Below are positions 23,958 through 28,214 of a DNA stretch of 64,000 nt, piece after piece. A program made the position numbers and the translations under genes. How positions within the stretch are numbered: position 1 is the first letter of the stretch; every line of letters begins with the position of its first letter. Under the pieces are notes generated by a model that saw only the letters and a program-made list of their open reading frames with translations, had not been told where the DNA came from and made no database searches. The stretch is from Aminomonas paucivorans DSM 12260 (GTDB taxonomy: Bacteria > Synergistota > Synergistia > Synergistales > Synergistaceae): assembly GCF_000165795.1 (NCBI RefSeq), contig NZ_CM001022.1:1521812-1585811 (forward strand). Direction: 5' to 3'.

Positions 23958-24398
23958 ATGAAGATCCGTCCCGCCGGGGTGATCGAAGAGCAAGGCAAGG
24001 TCCTGTTCCTTCGCTATGCCTACCCGCAGGGAGACGTCTACGGCATCCCCGGCGGAGGTGTGGAGGAGGGGGAGTCCCTCCGCCATGCCTTGGTCCGGGA
24101 GATGGAGGAGGAGCTGGGGATTGCCGTTCTGGTTGAGGACCTGCTCCTCAGCGCCGAAGCCCGTCCCGTGGGCCCCTTGGAGCACACCCTCCACCTATTC
24201 TTCCGCTGTCGCCGCCTGGGGGAAGGGACCCCCACGGTTCGGCGGGAACACACCAGCGCCGCTGGGCACGAATGGCTTCGCCTGGAGGACCTTCCCGAGA
24301 AGACCCTCTACCCCAACGTGGGAACCTTGCTGGCCCGGGCCCTCTTGCGCCCCGGGGTGCTCTACGTGGAGGAGCTTCCCTCCCGGGAATGGCGCTAA
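23958..24398 (+). CDS. Nudix hydrolase
   Basis: 146 residues. A complete Nudix box lies at residues 33-55 (GGVEEGESLRHALVREMEEE region, with the REMEEELGI core), so it should bind Mg2+ and hydrolyse a nucleoside diphosphate linked to another group. Substrate unknown. Starts ATG after AAAGGGGGAGG. Its TAA and the TAG of the phosphatase on the other strand share bases (24395-24398), so the two genes meet tail to tail with no spacer. Confidence 0.85.
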   Translation: MKIRPAGVIEEQGKVLFLRYAYPQGDVYGIPGGGVEEGESLRHALVREMEEELGIAVLVEDLLLSAEARPVGPLEHTLHLFFRCRRLGEGTPTVRREHTSAAGHEWLRLEDLPEKTLYPNVGTLLARALLRPGVLYVEELPSREWR

Positions 24399-25048
24399 AG
24401 CCCCTTCTGCTCCTCCCGGTGGAACCCCTCTTCCAGGTGGGAGGCATCTCCCAGCAGCAGCAGGCGGGGAGGTTTGCCCGCCCTCAGTTCCACCAGGTTC
24501 AGCCCTCCGTTGGGGATCACAAAGCGCCAGAAGCTCCCCAGGGGAGCGCCCATCCAATGGCAGAGGAGCACCTTCAGCACCGCGTCGTGGCTGGCCAGGC
24601 ACAGGTCCCCCTCCTCCGGGCAGGTCACCGCAAGCCGCTCCGCCGCTGCGACCGCTCGATCCCGGACCTCTTCCAGGGTCTCCCCTCCCGGCCCGGGCAT
24701 GCGCACCTCCTCGGGCCTCTCGTGCCAACGATCCAGGAGGCTCGGCCACGTTGCCCGGACCTCCTGGGCCAGACGTCCCTCCCAATCCCCGTGATGGATC
24801 TCCGTGAGGCCCTCGTCCACCTGCAGGGGAACCGGAGAATCCGAGGCTCCGTGGATGGCGCGAGCGGTCTGGAGGGCCCGGGATAGGGGACTGGAAACCA
24901 CCAGGGCGAAGGGGTGCCCCCGAAGGCGCTCCGCCACCCTGCGAGCCTGCTCCAGGCCCCGGAGGTTCAAGGGGGTGTCCTGCTGTCCCTGAAAACGTCC
25001 CTCCCGGTTCCAGTTCGTCTCCCCGTGGCGCACCAGAAAGAGGCGCAT
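24395..25048 (-). CDS. Histidine phosphatase family protein, probable phosphoserine phosphatase
   Basis: 217 residues, phosphoglycerate-mutase-like. RHGET at residues 7-11 holds the phospho-accepting histidine; SSPLSRALQTA and ASHDAVLKVLL supply the second arginine and histidine. It overlaps the serA stop by one base (TGATG) and is the third gene of an operon with serA and an aminotransferase. Metal-independent phosphoserine phosphatases of this superfamily are known (e.g. from Hydrogenobacter), and no SerB-type gene is in the window, so the serine-pathway role is a reasonable inference. A general sugar phosphatase or CobC-type role remains possible. Confidence 0.75.
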   Translation of the reverse strand: MRLFLVRHGETNWNREGRFQGQQDTPLNLRGLEQARRVAERLRGHPFALVVSSPLSRALQTARAIHGASDSPVPLQVDEGLTEIHHGDWEGRLAQEVRATWPSLLDRWHERPEEVRMPGPGGETLEEVRDRAVAAAERLAVTCPEEGDLCLASHDAVLKVLLCHWMGAPLGSFWRFVIPNGGLNLVELRAGKPPRLLLLGDASHLEEGFHREEQKGL

Positions 25049-26697
25049 CACAGCCCTTCCTTCAGGCAGACCGTGGCCGCCCAGATGAGGTCCCCGTCGT
25101 GCCGGAGGGTGGAGAGCAGCTCCTCCCCCAGCTCCTGATCGATCTGAAGCGCCGCCAGGGCCAGACCGCTGCCGTTCTTCCGCCCCAGGGCGAAATTGGC
25201 GATGTTCACCCCCGCCTGCCCCAGCAGGGTTCCCACCTTGCCGATCACTCCCGGCCGGTCGTGGTTCTGGAAGAGGAGAAGGCGCCCCGAAGGGATCAGG
25301 TCCAGCCAGTAGTCGTCCAGGCGCACCACCCGCTGCCGCCCTTCTTCCGTCACGGTCCCCACCAGGCGCAGGGAGCCCCGCTCCGTGCCCACCTTCACGT
25401 CGATGACGTTCTGGTAGGTGCTGGACTCCCCGAAGCCCTCCTCCAGCTGGATGCCCTTCTCCTGGGCGATGAGGGGAGCCACCATGTAGTTCACCTCCGC
25501 TCCGTGGCGCACCTCCAGCAGCCCTTTGAGGAACGCCACAGTGTAGGGCTTGAGGCGGAAGGGAGCTTCAAAGCGGATGGGTTCCTCCTCGTCCTGGAAG
25601 AGGGGACCTCGGAGCATCACCTGACAGCTCGACACGGCCCCTTCGGTGCGCTCCGCCAGGTGGGTGGCCAGTACCCCCAGGTTTCGGGCCAGGGTGAGGA
25701 ACGCCCGGCGCTGCCCCGTGAGGCGCTGTTCCATGAAGGGGAGGTTCACCGCATGCTCGTAGGGCTCCCCCCGAAGGGCGGCCAGGAGGTTGGTGGCGGC
25801 GATGCGAGCCACCGCAGACTGGGCCTCGTAGGTGTTGGCCCCCAGGTGAGGGGTGAGGACGATGTGGTCCTGCAGGTCCTCCGCCAGGAGAGGGTGCTCT
25901 AGCCCCGGGGGCTCCATGCTGTACACGTCGAAGGCCGCCCCGGCAAGCCGTCCCTCCCGAAGGGCCAGGGCACAGGCCTCCTCGTCCACCAGGCCTCCCC
26001 GGGCGCAGTTGATCAGGTAGGCCCCCCTCTTGATGGTGCGCACCAGCCGGTCGTCCAGCATCCCCCGGGTCTCCTCGGTGAGGGGCACGTGGAGGGTGAT
26101 GACGTCCGCCATGGCCAGAGCGTCCGCCAGATCCGGCAACAGCTGCACCTTCAGGTTCTCCGCCTTCCCGGGAGAGACGTAGGGATCGTAGGCGGACACG
26201 TCCATGCCGAAGGCACGGCACCGGAGGGCCACCTGGGTCCCGATGCGCCCCAACCCCAACACCAACAGGCGCTTTCCGTTGAGCTGGTGTCCCATGAAGC
26301 GCTTCCGGTCCCACTCCCCCCGGCGCATGGAGGCGTTGGCCTGGGGGGTGCGCCGGATCAGCCCCAGCATCAGCGCCAGGGTCTGTTCCGCTGCGGAGAG
26401 GGTGTTACCCGTGGGGGCGTTGATGACCACGACACCCCGTCGGCTTGCCTCTGGCAGATCCACGTTGTCCACTCCCACCCCGGCCCGACCCACCACCTTC
26501 AGGACCGGGGCCGCCTCCAGCAGGGGCACGTCGATGCCCGTGCCGCTGCGGGTCAGGAGGGCGTCCGTGTCCTGCAGCTGGGCAAAGAGATCCTCCCGGG
26601 AAAGCCCGACCTTCTGCACCAGCTGCACATCCCGGGCCTCCCGCAGGATCGCCAGGCCCTCTTCATGAATCGATTCGGTCACCAGGACCTTCCACAT
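25048..26697 (-). CDS. serA: D-3-phosphoglycerate dehydrogenase, long form
   Basis: 549 residues, similar to the long ASB- and ACT-containing type. NAD-binding motif GLGRIGTQVA, catalytic region ARGGLVDEE and histidine in LTPHLGANT. An intervening ASB domain (about 330-460) and a C-terminal ACT domain (LFQNHDRPGVIGKVGTLLGQAGVNI) suggest feedback by serine. ATG at 26697 follows GGAGGAAACCCC; a six-codon in-frame extension covers only the ribosome site. It overlaps the aminotransferase gene by 19 bp. First enzyme of the phosphorylated serine pathway, in the cytoplasm. Confidence 0.95.
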   Translation of the reverse strand: MWKVLVTESIHEEGLAILREARDVQLVQKVGLSREDLFAQLQDTDALLTRSGTGIDVPLLEAAPVLKVVGRAGVGVDNVDLPEASRRGVVVINAPTGNTLSAAEQTLALMLGLIRRTPQANASMRRGEWDRKRFMGHQLNGKRLLVLGLGRIGTQVALRCRAFGMDVSAYDPYVSPGKAENLKVQLLPDLADALAMADVITLHVPLTEETRGMLDDRLVRTIKRGAYLINCARGGLVDEEACALALREGRLAGAAFDVYSMEPPGLEHPLLAEDLQDHIVLTPHLGANTYEAQSAVARIAATNLLAALRGEPYEHAVNLPFMEQRLTGQRRAFLTLARNLGVLATHLAERTEGAVSSCQVMLRGPLFQDEEEPIRFEAPFRLKPYTVAFLKGLLEVRHGAEVNYMVAPLIAQEKGIQLEEGFGESSTYQNVIDVKVGTERGSLRLVGTVTEEGRQRVVRLDDYWLDLIPSGRLLLFQNHDRPGVIGKVGTLLGQAGVNIANFALGRKNGSGLALAALQIDQELGEELLSTLRHDGDLIWAATVCLKEGL

Positions 26698-27842
26698 GGG
26701 GTTTCCTCCTTCCACGTTTCATAGGCCCGCTCCAAGGCTTCCTTGGGGGAGGGAAGCTTGCCCTGGGCCCTGCAGGCCGCCCAGAAGCTCCCCAGGATCA
26801 GGGAGAGCTGGGGCCAGCCGAGATCGACGTAGTGTGCCACCCGAACCAGGTGCCCCTTCAGGGGGCCCTGGCCACCCGCCACCTCCACCCCCATGGAGCG
26901 CAGGGATTCCCTCAGGGAATCCGCCACCCCCGGGGATTCAAAGTACAGCGCCGTGACCCCCGGAGAACGGTGCTCCTCTCGGGTCACCAGAAGGGGAAGG
27001 CCCAACCCTTCCAGGCCGGAGGCCAGGGCCCGGGCGAAGCGACGCCGGGCGGCGAACCAGACGGGAGCCCCTTCCCGGAGGATCCCGTCCAACCCCGCGG
27101 AGACGGCGGCGTAAAGAGAGAGGGGGGGAGTGTAGGGCGTCTGGGAGTTCTTCTCCAGGTCCTTCCGGTAGAGGACCAGATCCAGGGAATAGGTGGGGCA
27201 GCGGTGCGACCGGGCCGCCTCCCATCCCCGGGAGGAAAGCCACAGGAAGGAAAGGCCGGGGGGACTCATCAACCCCTTCTGGGAGGAGGTGGCCAGACCA
27301 TCCACCCCCCAGGCCTGGGGGAGACAGGACATGGCCCCGACGGAACTCACCCCGTCTAGCAGGACCAGAGGCCGGGGCTCTGGAAGGGCGGCCAGGATGG
27401 CCTCCACCGGATTGACCACCCCCGTGGAGGTCTCGTTGTGGGTCAGCAGCAGGGCCTTCGTCCCCGGGCGGGCCATCAAGGCCTCTCGGACCGAGGCCGG
27501 ATCGACCGCTTCTCCCCAGGGGACGTCCAGAACATGGAGGTCCACCCCGCGTCGGGCGGCGATCTCCCGGAACCGATCCCCGAAGGCGCCGCAGGAGACG
27601 GACAGGACCTCGTCCCCCGGCTCCAGAAGGTTCTGACAGAGGGCGTCCAGGCCTCCCGTGCCCGATCCGGGAACGGGAAGGACGGGGTCTGAGGTCTCGA
27701 AAAGCCGGGCCAGTTTCTCCAGCAGCTCCCGATAGAGGACGGAAAAGGCCGGTTCCCGGTGGCTGATCATGGGGTTCCCGCCCGCAAGGCGCACCGGGTC
27801 GGGAAGCTCCACGGGTCCGGGGGTCAACAACACGCGCTGCAT
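26679..27842 (-). CDS. Class V aminotransferase, probable phosphoserine (or serine-pyruvate/alanine-glyoxylate type) aminotransferase
   Basis: 387 residues, PLP enzyme of fold type I. The Schiff-base lysine is K189 in ATSSQKGLMSPPG; LLDGVSSVGA holds the PLP-contacting aspartate; TPGPVELPDPV and GSGTGGLDALC are typical of the serine-pyruvate/alanine-glyoxylate group. As first gene of an operon with serA, it most likely performs the phosphoserine aminotransferase step, as group members do in some organisms lacking classical SerC. ATG at 27842 is chosen because AGGAGGT lies 6 bases upstream; a GTG two codons earlier overlaps it. Expression is probably controlled by the upstream attenuator. Confidence 0.85.
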   Translation of the reverse strand: MQRVLLTPGPVELPDPVRLAGGNPMISHREPAFSVLYRELLEKLARLFETSDPVLPVPGSGTGGLDALCQNLLEPGDEVLSVSCGAFGDRFREIAARRGVDLHVLDVPWGEAVDPASVREALMARPGTKALLLTHNETSTGVVNPVEAILAALPEPRPLVLLDGVSSVGAMSCLPQAWGVDGLATSSQKGLMSPPGLSFLWLSSRGWEAARSHRCPTYSLDLVLYRKDLEKNSQTPYTPPLSLYAAVSAGLDGILREGAPVWFAARRRFARALASGLEGLGLPLLVTREEHRSPGVTALYFESPGVADSLRESLRSMGVEVAGGQGPLKGHLVRVAHYVDLGWPQLSLILGSFWAACRAQGKLPSPKEALERAYETWKEETPCGRSW

Positions 27843-27871
27843 CCACACACCTCCTCATGGAGGAAGGGAAG

Positions 27872-27908
27872 AAAAAGGCGGGAGCCGTTGGAACCGGGCC
27901 CCCGCCTT
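27872..27908 (-). terminator. Attenuator terminator ahead of the serine operon
   Basis: On the minus strand, AAGGCGGGGGCC (27908-27897) pairs with GGCTCCCGCCTT (27886-27875) in a 12-bp stem with one G-T pair and a 10-base loop. The T tract TTTTT is at 27876-27872. It stands 30 bases before the aminotransferase start and after the leader ORF, so it would stop most transcripts before the structural genes. The segment CCCCTGCGCC (27963-27954) can pair with GGCGGGGG of the 5' arm with a 2-base bulge and could act as antiterminator. Confidence 0.85.
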
Positions 27909-27948
27909 CGCTTCGTCTTCCGTTGGATCCTGGGATCGAAACGCAGCT

Positions 27949-28068
27949 TCAGGGGCGCAGGGGAACGGGCCAACAACCTCCTCCGATGGAGGAAGAAGAG
28001 GATCCCATGGAAAAACGGGAGCGGGACGAGCCGAAACCGGCAAGGGAAAGGTCGCAGGTGGGGTTCAC
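27949..28068 (-). CDS. Serine-rich leader peptide of the serine biosynthesis operon
   Basis: A 39-codon ORF: GTG start at 28068, TGA at 27951-27949. A strong Shine-Dalgarno (GAGAGGAGG, 28086-28078) lies 9 bases upstream. The product has ten serines, including five in a row in GSSSSSIGGGCWP (codons 22-34), and six glycines, two cysteines and one tryptophan. Glycine, cysteine and tryptophan are all made from serine. It sits between a good promoter and an intrinsic terminator that precedes the aminotransferase-serA-phosphatase genes. That layout matches amino-acid attenuator leaders such as those of trp, his and thr operons. Stalling at serine codons would leave the antiterminator segment free. 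Not a known annotated peptide to my knowledge. Confidence 0.8.
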   Translation of the reverse strand: MNPTCDLSLAGFGSSRSRFSMGSSSSSIGGGCWPVPLRP

Positions 28069-28099
28069 TTTTCTTCGCCTCCTCTCGGAAATTTCGTTG

Positions 28100-28128
28100 C
28101 TTATACCATGGGGGCCTCCTGGCGTCAA
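28100..28128 (-). promoter_or_regulatory. Promoter of the serine operon
   Basis: On the minus strand TTGACG (28128-28123), a 17-bp spacer, TATAAG (28105-28100). Initiation is expected near 28093, only a few bases before the leader-peptide ribosome site, so the leader transcript runs about 250 bases to the aminotransferase start. Confidence 0.8.
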
Positions 28129-28208
28129 GAAAACCCGTCTCTATCGTCCTCCTCATGCCTTTCCTCTCCTTTCTCCGCGTCACCCCCGGAGGGGGACACA
28201 AAAACCGC

Positions 28209-28214
28209 TATAAT
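28209..28214 (+). promoter_or_regulatory. -10 element upstream of mltG
   Basis: Perfect TATAAT, facing away from the serine operon promoter. No convincing -35 hexamer. It overlaps the first possible ATG of mltG (28213), which argues for the later start codon. Confidence 0.45.

Follow-up and report, generated by a model that had tools for sequence, protein, structure and literature searches.

A serine biosynthesis operon and its leader

The window, which is the whole 64,000-nucleotide stretch analyzed here and part of the complete 2.63 Mb genome of the Synergistota member Aminomonas paucivorans DSM 12260, carries on its minus strand a three-gene operon encoding an aminotransferase, phosphoglycerate dehydrogenase (SerA), and a histidine-phosphatase-family protein (Table 1). 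The last of these matches phosphoserine phosphatase 1 (PDB 4ij5, E = 9e-28). Neither SerC (TIGR01364) nor SerB (TIGR00338) has a match anywhere in the genome, and therefore this operon is its only recognized route to serine. Judging by their genomic context and by related proteins such as phosphoserine phosphatase 1, the first and third enzymes presumably function in serine synthesis, and the pathway here seems to use nonorthologous enzymes in place of SerC and SerB.

Upstream of the operon lies the anatomy of a transcription attenuator. A preliminary description of this DNA had reported a TTGACG-17-TATAAG promoter, a ribosome site 9 bases before a 39-codon open reading frame (ORF) with five consecutive UCN serine codons and 10 serines in all, and a 12-bp terminator hairpin with a U5 tract about 30 bases before the aminotransferase-serA-phosphatase operon; all of these elements are present where it placed them. 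The leader ORF (28068 to 27949) encodes VNPTCDLSLAGFGSSRSRFSMGSSSSSIGGGCWPVPLRP (10 Ser among 39 residues). One of the 12 terminator pairs is G-U, and the U tract ends roughly 30 bases upstream of the aminotransferase ATG at 27842. The same description had proposed an antiterminator strand at 27963 to 27954; a pairing strand does occur at the end of the ORF, but its best predicted position is 27957 to 27932 (segment 2), where the duplex with segment 3 has a predicted energy of −27.1 kcal/mol. The serine codons themselves form the 5′ side of a predicted hairpin, P1, whose 3′ side holds the glycine codons GGA GGA, making it a candidate pause or protector hairpin. On the plus strand, an mltG-like gene (ATG near 28211) starts a short distance from the leader promoter and points away from it (window positions 28105 to 28211), and the two may share a common regulatory region.

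Table 1. Features of the serine operon and its leader in the window
Feature	Position	Strand	Basis
−35 box, TTGACG	28123..28128	−	Read from sequence; promoter type recurs before relatives' leaders
−10 box, TATAAG, spacer 17	28100..28105	−	Read from sequence
Shine-Dalgarno, AGGAGG, 9 nt 5′ of GTG 28068	28078..28083	−	Read from sequence
Leader ORF, 39 codons, 10 Ser, GTG start 28068	27949..28068	−	Ser-rich orthologous ORFs in relatives
UCN run ×5 (UCC UCU UCU UCC UCC), putative control codons	27988..28002	−	Read from sequence
Hairpin P1, 8 bp, CUUCCUCC AUC GGAGGAGG	27977..27995	−	Predicted fold, −11.5 kcal/mol
Segment 2, antiterminator strand, spans ORF end and stop codon	27932..27957	−	Predicted duplex with segment 3
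Segment 3, alternative partner of segment 2 or, via 27908-27897, of the terminator 3′ arm	27897..27921	−	Predicted pairing
Intrinsic terminator, 12-bp stem 27908-27897/27886-27875 plus U5 27876-27872	27872..27908	−	Predicted, −25.5 kcal/mol
Class V (AGXT-like) aminotransferase, presumed phosphoserine aminotransferase	26679..27842	−	Profile matches and context
serA, phosphoglycerate dehydrogenase	25048..26715	−	TIGR01327, 568 bits (cutoff, 454)
Histidine-phosphatase-family protein, presumed phosphoserine phosphatase (PspA-like)	24395..25051	−	PF00300

Taken by itself, the single sequence is suggestive, not conclusive. The window contains one run of five TCN codons (0.27 expected), and a pattern scan of the 2.63 Mb genome found 97 UCN ×5 runs compared with 61 for the reversed control pattern; such runs are common in this genome, and the run alone is therefore weak evidence. 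Inspection of 75 regions covering the 97 matches found only this locus to combine a short Ser-run ORF with a terminator downstream, and its Ser-cluster score within a short ORF was reached by none of 200 dinucleotide shuffles.

Conservation of the leader across Synergistales

We collected close aminotransferase orthologs (scoring over about 300 bits; roughly 70 Synergistota loci) and read their upstream regions. A Ser-rich short ORF followed by an intrinsic terminator precedes the aminotransferase at 58 scored loci from 26 genera, with a mean of 9.2 serines per leader; three of the terminators (L005, L109, and L112) were set by eye, the automatic search having missed or misplaced them. Examples of the leader peptides are MRAIKLFVIAGISSSSLSSGASSSCGGSGCNCRSRNV (L007), MVPFQRDFGSSPSGCSSCWSSSSLGEDGTFAYASPRGRLSRA (L006), and MNFVCLFGILGTGSSSSSSSGWSGRAGLPVPAGKAPQP (L105). 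A sigma-70-like promoter (TTGACN/TATAAR type) scoring at least 9/12 lies upstream of 51 of the 58 leaders, and serA adjoins the aminotransferase downstream on the same strand at all 30 loci with enough flanking sequence. At L006 (G173:C1:952081-953289), in a complete genome, the SerA family match begins only near residue 135, in contrast to the two other members of the genus, pointing to a possible frameshift or divergent N terminus.

A phylum-wide SerA search extended the comparison to genomes in which no aminotransferase precedes serA, and a Ser-rich leader with a terminator lies upstream of serA in 11 of the 15 such genomes examined: G011, G013, G015, and G016 (genus g24); G007, G008, and G009 (g23); G025 and G029 (g29); G038 (g34); and G170 (g21), the last with longer spacing to serA. 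Genus g29 holds both arrangements, with leader-aminotransferase-serA in G026 and a near-identical leader directly upstream of serA in G025; the Synergistota ortholog search found no close aminotransferase ortholog in G025 or G029. Where the intervening aminotransferase gene is missing, the leader thus appears to stay with serA. Adding these leader-serA genera and one extra genus, g33, in which the leader lies upstream of the aminotransferase (G037), to the 26 scored genera brings the count to about 31 genera, drawn from nine Synergistales families. Alignment of relatives, which the preliminary description had put forward as a check, shows the Ser ORF, terminator, and antiterminator recurring while the rest diverges, with coordinated changes, and this recurrence together with the leader-serA loci supports its proposal that a serine operon is preceded by a leader-peptide attenuator for serine.

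The distribution has gaps. No recognized leader was found at the serine loci of G093, G105, G167, G125, G138, G139, and G164, nor at those of genus g8 (G140 and G141; L017 and L077). Homologs that keep the terminator without the Ser ORF, named beforehand as evidence against a leader peptide, are not the overall pattern, with G140 as the exception: at this locus, from one of the small AT-rich genomes of g8, the terminator and a possible antiterminator are kept and there is no recognizable Ser ORF. In G141, also small and AT-rich, neither a terminator nor an antiterminator is clear before the aminotransferase. In G093 (L092), a tandem repeat with units like CTTTAGGCCTCTTATTTAATTCAGATAGGC fills the leader position, occupying the last 260 bases before the aminotransferase. 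The leader was absent from the loci read in deep-branching f11 genomes and families outside the order (L113 to L115). Outside the phylum, 43 distant aminotransferase loci showed no credible Ser leader with a terminator, although these are distant homologs in other contexts and so provide weak evidence of absence. Two assemblies, G156 (L081 and L082) and G126 (C210 and C248), each contain two aminotransferase-serA loci, which represent either duplication or mixed bins; both loci of G156 have their own, different Ser leader.

Codon and residue content

Serine makes up 25.0% of leader residues (genus weighted), 2.33 times the 10.7% expected from base composition, whereas reading this DNA in its two alternative frames gives 8.0% and the downstream enzyme has 7.4%. 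Because a Ser-cluster score was used to pick the ORFs, the 25.0% is somewhat too high as an absolute value. With the same scoring, shuffled sequences average 3.7, against 10.6 observed. The preliminary description had held the peptide to be tuned to glycine, cysteine, and tryptophan as well. Of these, only glycine clearly exceeds its genus-weighted base-composition expectation (13.0% versus 7.6%, 1.71-fold), with cysteine at 5.1% versus 4.5% (1.13-fold) and tryptophan at 1.8% versus 2.2% (0.85-fold). Serine is thus the clear signal and glycine a secondary one, while cysteine and tryptophan show no excess. The glycine codons in the window pair with serine codons in hairpin P1, and therefore the glycine excess is explicable by RNA pairing. 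The leader serine codons are biased to UCN, with AGY making up 13.5% of them compared with 24.3% in the downstream gene.

In 23 of 26 genera, the RNA around the Ser region folds locally into a more stable structure than its synonymous recodings do (P = 9e-6). Ungapped close pairs contain 64 nonsynonymous codons versus 73 ± 4.2 expected, indicating modest to weak purifying selection on the peptide as a whole. An apparent signal of strong purifying selection from peptide-guided codon alignments was set aside because such alignment favors the coding frame.

Antiterminator and ribosome geometry

For comparison across loci, segment 2 was taken to run from the Ser cluster to the terminator, and segment 3 to comprise the 5′ arm of the terminator plus the 12 bases before it. 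In a swap test of cognate against cross-genus pairings, carried out per genus, predicted segment 2:3 duplexes average −20.4 kcal/mol when cognate and −16.4 kcal/mol when crossed. Cognate duplexes are better by 3.4 kcal/mol and win in 23 of 26 genera (Wilcoxon P = 8e-5 with segment 2 swapped, 3e-5 with segment 3 swapped). Within the f1 clade, the helix changes from CCGGUCCCGAAACG / CGUUUC(A)GGGACCGG to CCGGUCUCAAAGCG / CGUUUUGAGAUCGG and similar forms. This 14-bp helix has 93.5% standard pairs, falling to at most 54% when slid by one to three columns, and it includes two double-changed pairs (U-A/C-G and A-U/G-C); the observed number of doubly changed cells was reached by none of 500 shuffles. 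These compensatory changes represent few independent events, yet they fall on the two arms of what would be a single switch.

The position of segment 2 also fits control by a translating ribosome. In 39 of 58 loci it falls at least partly within the stretch that a stop-codon ribosome would occupy, and in 57 of 58 it is out of reach of a ribosome positioned on the first core serine. Fold predictions for the window, made with a ribosomal leading edge of +13 and giving figures that depend on this assumed footprint, yield a terminator probability of 0.07 to 0.08 when the A site is on Ser 23 or 24, the first two of the run, with a probability of 0.72 to 0.73 for pairing of segments 2 and 3 ahead of 3′ arm synthesis. 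With the ribosome at the stop codon, the corresponding predictions are 0.93 and 0.00, and with the ribosome just before the Ser run they are 0.89 to 0.91 and 0.45. For an A site on Ser 25 to 27, the last three, equilibrium folding again favors the terminator, and the model therefore needs the antiterminator to form first at those positions, which is usual in attenuation. How fully the terminator 5′ arm is occupied at each ribosome position, a simpler measure, reaches saturation and did not separate the real sequence from shuffled ones.

Proposed mechanism and alternative explanations

We conclude that this leader is very probably a serine-responsive, ribosome-mediated transcription attenuator found order-wide in Synergistales. 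As far as sequence comparison can tell, it has every testable feature of such attenuators: a short ORF between promoter and operon, predicted to be translatable from the promoter, Shine-Dalgarno sequence, and reading frame in the window and relatives; in-frame enrichment of codons for the amino acid of the associated pathway, here serine; an intrinsic terminator before the first gene; an antiterminator that excludes the terminator and covaries with it across relatives; and, by prediction in the window and relatives, an antiterminator strand that a ribosome at the stop codon would cover and one at the control codons would not. Ribosome stalling, a response to serine, and transcriptional read-through would complete the scheme. 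Transcription would start about 25 bases upstream of the 39-codon ORF. When UCN-reading Ser-tRNA is charged, the ribosome would pass the serine codons to the stop codon and cover segment 2, leaving segment 3 free to form the terminator and switch the operon off. When charged Ser-tRNA is scarce, the ribosome would wait on the UCN run with segment 2 exposed, segments 2 and 3 would pair, the terminator would fail to form, and the aminotransferase-serA-phosphatase operon would be transcribed. On balance, we lean toward a serine-specific attenuator that is old enough to span nine Synergistales families, stays with serA, and, given its mainly UCN codons, would report the charging of UCN-reading rather than AGY-reading tRNA-Ser.

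The leader might instead integrate serine with its products glycine, cysteine, and tryptophan, with control codons of every one of these types. Cysteine and glycine do reach 3 and 1.4 times their levels in the downstream enzyme, and cysteine is present in the leaders of 23 of 26 genera; however, measured against the leaders' own base composition cysteine (1.13-fold) and tryptophan (0.85-fold) show no excess, tryptophan is absent from the leaders of 9 of 26 genera, and the window glycine codons have their pairing role in P1, all of which makes this reading improbable. The terminator could also be governed by a protein, a T-box, or a metabolite-binding RNA, with the Ser-rich ORF encoding a small protein. 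Other factors could read conserved hairpins, and G140 retains its terminator without a recognized Ser ORF, but we regard such control as quite unlikely: neither the window nor 20 related loci contains any Rfam family at gathering score, the T-box and the serC RNA element (RF00517) included, the peptide outside the Ser region is highly variable between clades, and the antiterminator strand occupies the end of the ORF, so that a ribosome completing translation would cover it.

An arrest peptide is less probable still. By this account the nascent Ser/Gly-rich chain would halt the ribosome on binding a small molecule, and the C-terminal motifs kept in some clades (CRSRNV and GRAGLPxPA) would fit; the CRSRNV stretch, however, is encoded by the pairing partner of the terminator arm, and only serine recurs as a residue pattern between clades. 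Chance juxtaposition of a UCN run and an ordinary terminator, for which the 97 genomic UCN ×5 runs might speak, is hardly credible in the face of recurrence in about 31 genera, a frame-specific serine excess, and covariation. Serine-responsive attenuation would in turn support a role in serine synthesis for the operon's aminotransferase and phosphatase, which belong to neither the SerC nor the SerB family.

Relation to known systems

The preliminary description knew of no established leader-peptide attenuator for serine, and none was found in the open-access literature searched or in Rfam; leader attenuators for other amino acids were found. The main text of a study that analyzed Thermovirga lienii intergenic regions mentions neither serine nor serA (PMC6429828). 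Priority for a serine leader attenuator is therefore likely, though not certain.

Several described systems share single elements with the Synergistota leader. The serC RNA element of alphaproteobacteria (RF00517) likewise lies upstream of serine biosynthesis genes, there serC-serA, but consists of two short stems by the start codon that are proposed to hide the ribosome site; its description, unlike that of the Synergistota leader, includes neither a serine leader peptide nor a terminator (PMC1273637). The uORFC-8-2 motif and other upstream-ORF attenuator motifs resemble it as leaders found by comparative genomics with tandem codons for the sensed amino acid, although uORFC-8-2 carries cysteine codons before cysS in Rhodobacterales (PMC8632094). 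In Bacillus subtilis, UCN serine codons in sinR are read slowly when serine is short; our model proposes a similar use of slow UCN reading, but the sinR case acts on that gene's own translation, with no leader and no terminator (PMC3862929). A 2010 survey that added a histidine leader from Firmicutes noted that, until then, leader peptides were known only from Proteobacteria and Actinobacteria (PMC2965389).

A serine case in Synergistota would extend both the amino acid list and the phylogenetic range of attenuation, give a poorly studied, amino acid-fermenting phylum a defined regulatory switch, and offer about 70 natural variants for studying the coevolution of control codons, pause hairpin, and antiterminator. 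The mechanism itself, leader-peptide attenuation, is textbook knowledge for a small number of amino acids, with attenuators in the trp, his, thr, leu, and ilv operons. Like these, the Synergistota leader has a short ORF rich in codons for the product of the biosynthetic operon downstream, an antiterminator strand at the ORF end, and a mutually exclusive terminator; unlike them, it would act in serine control, belongs to Synergistota, is unrelated in sequence, and is proposed here from sequence comparison. The mechanism is thus of a known kind; what appears to be new is its use for serine and its occurrence in Synergistota.
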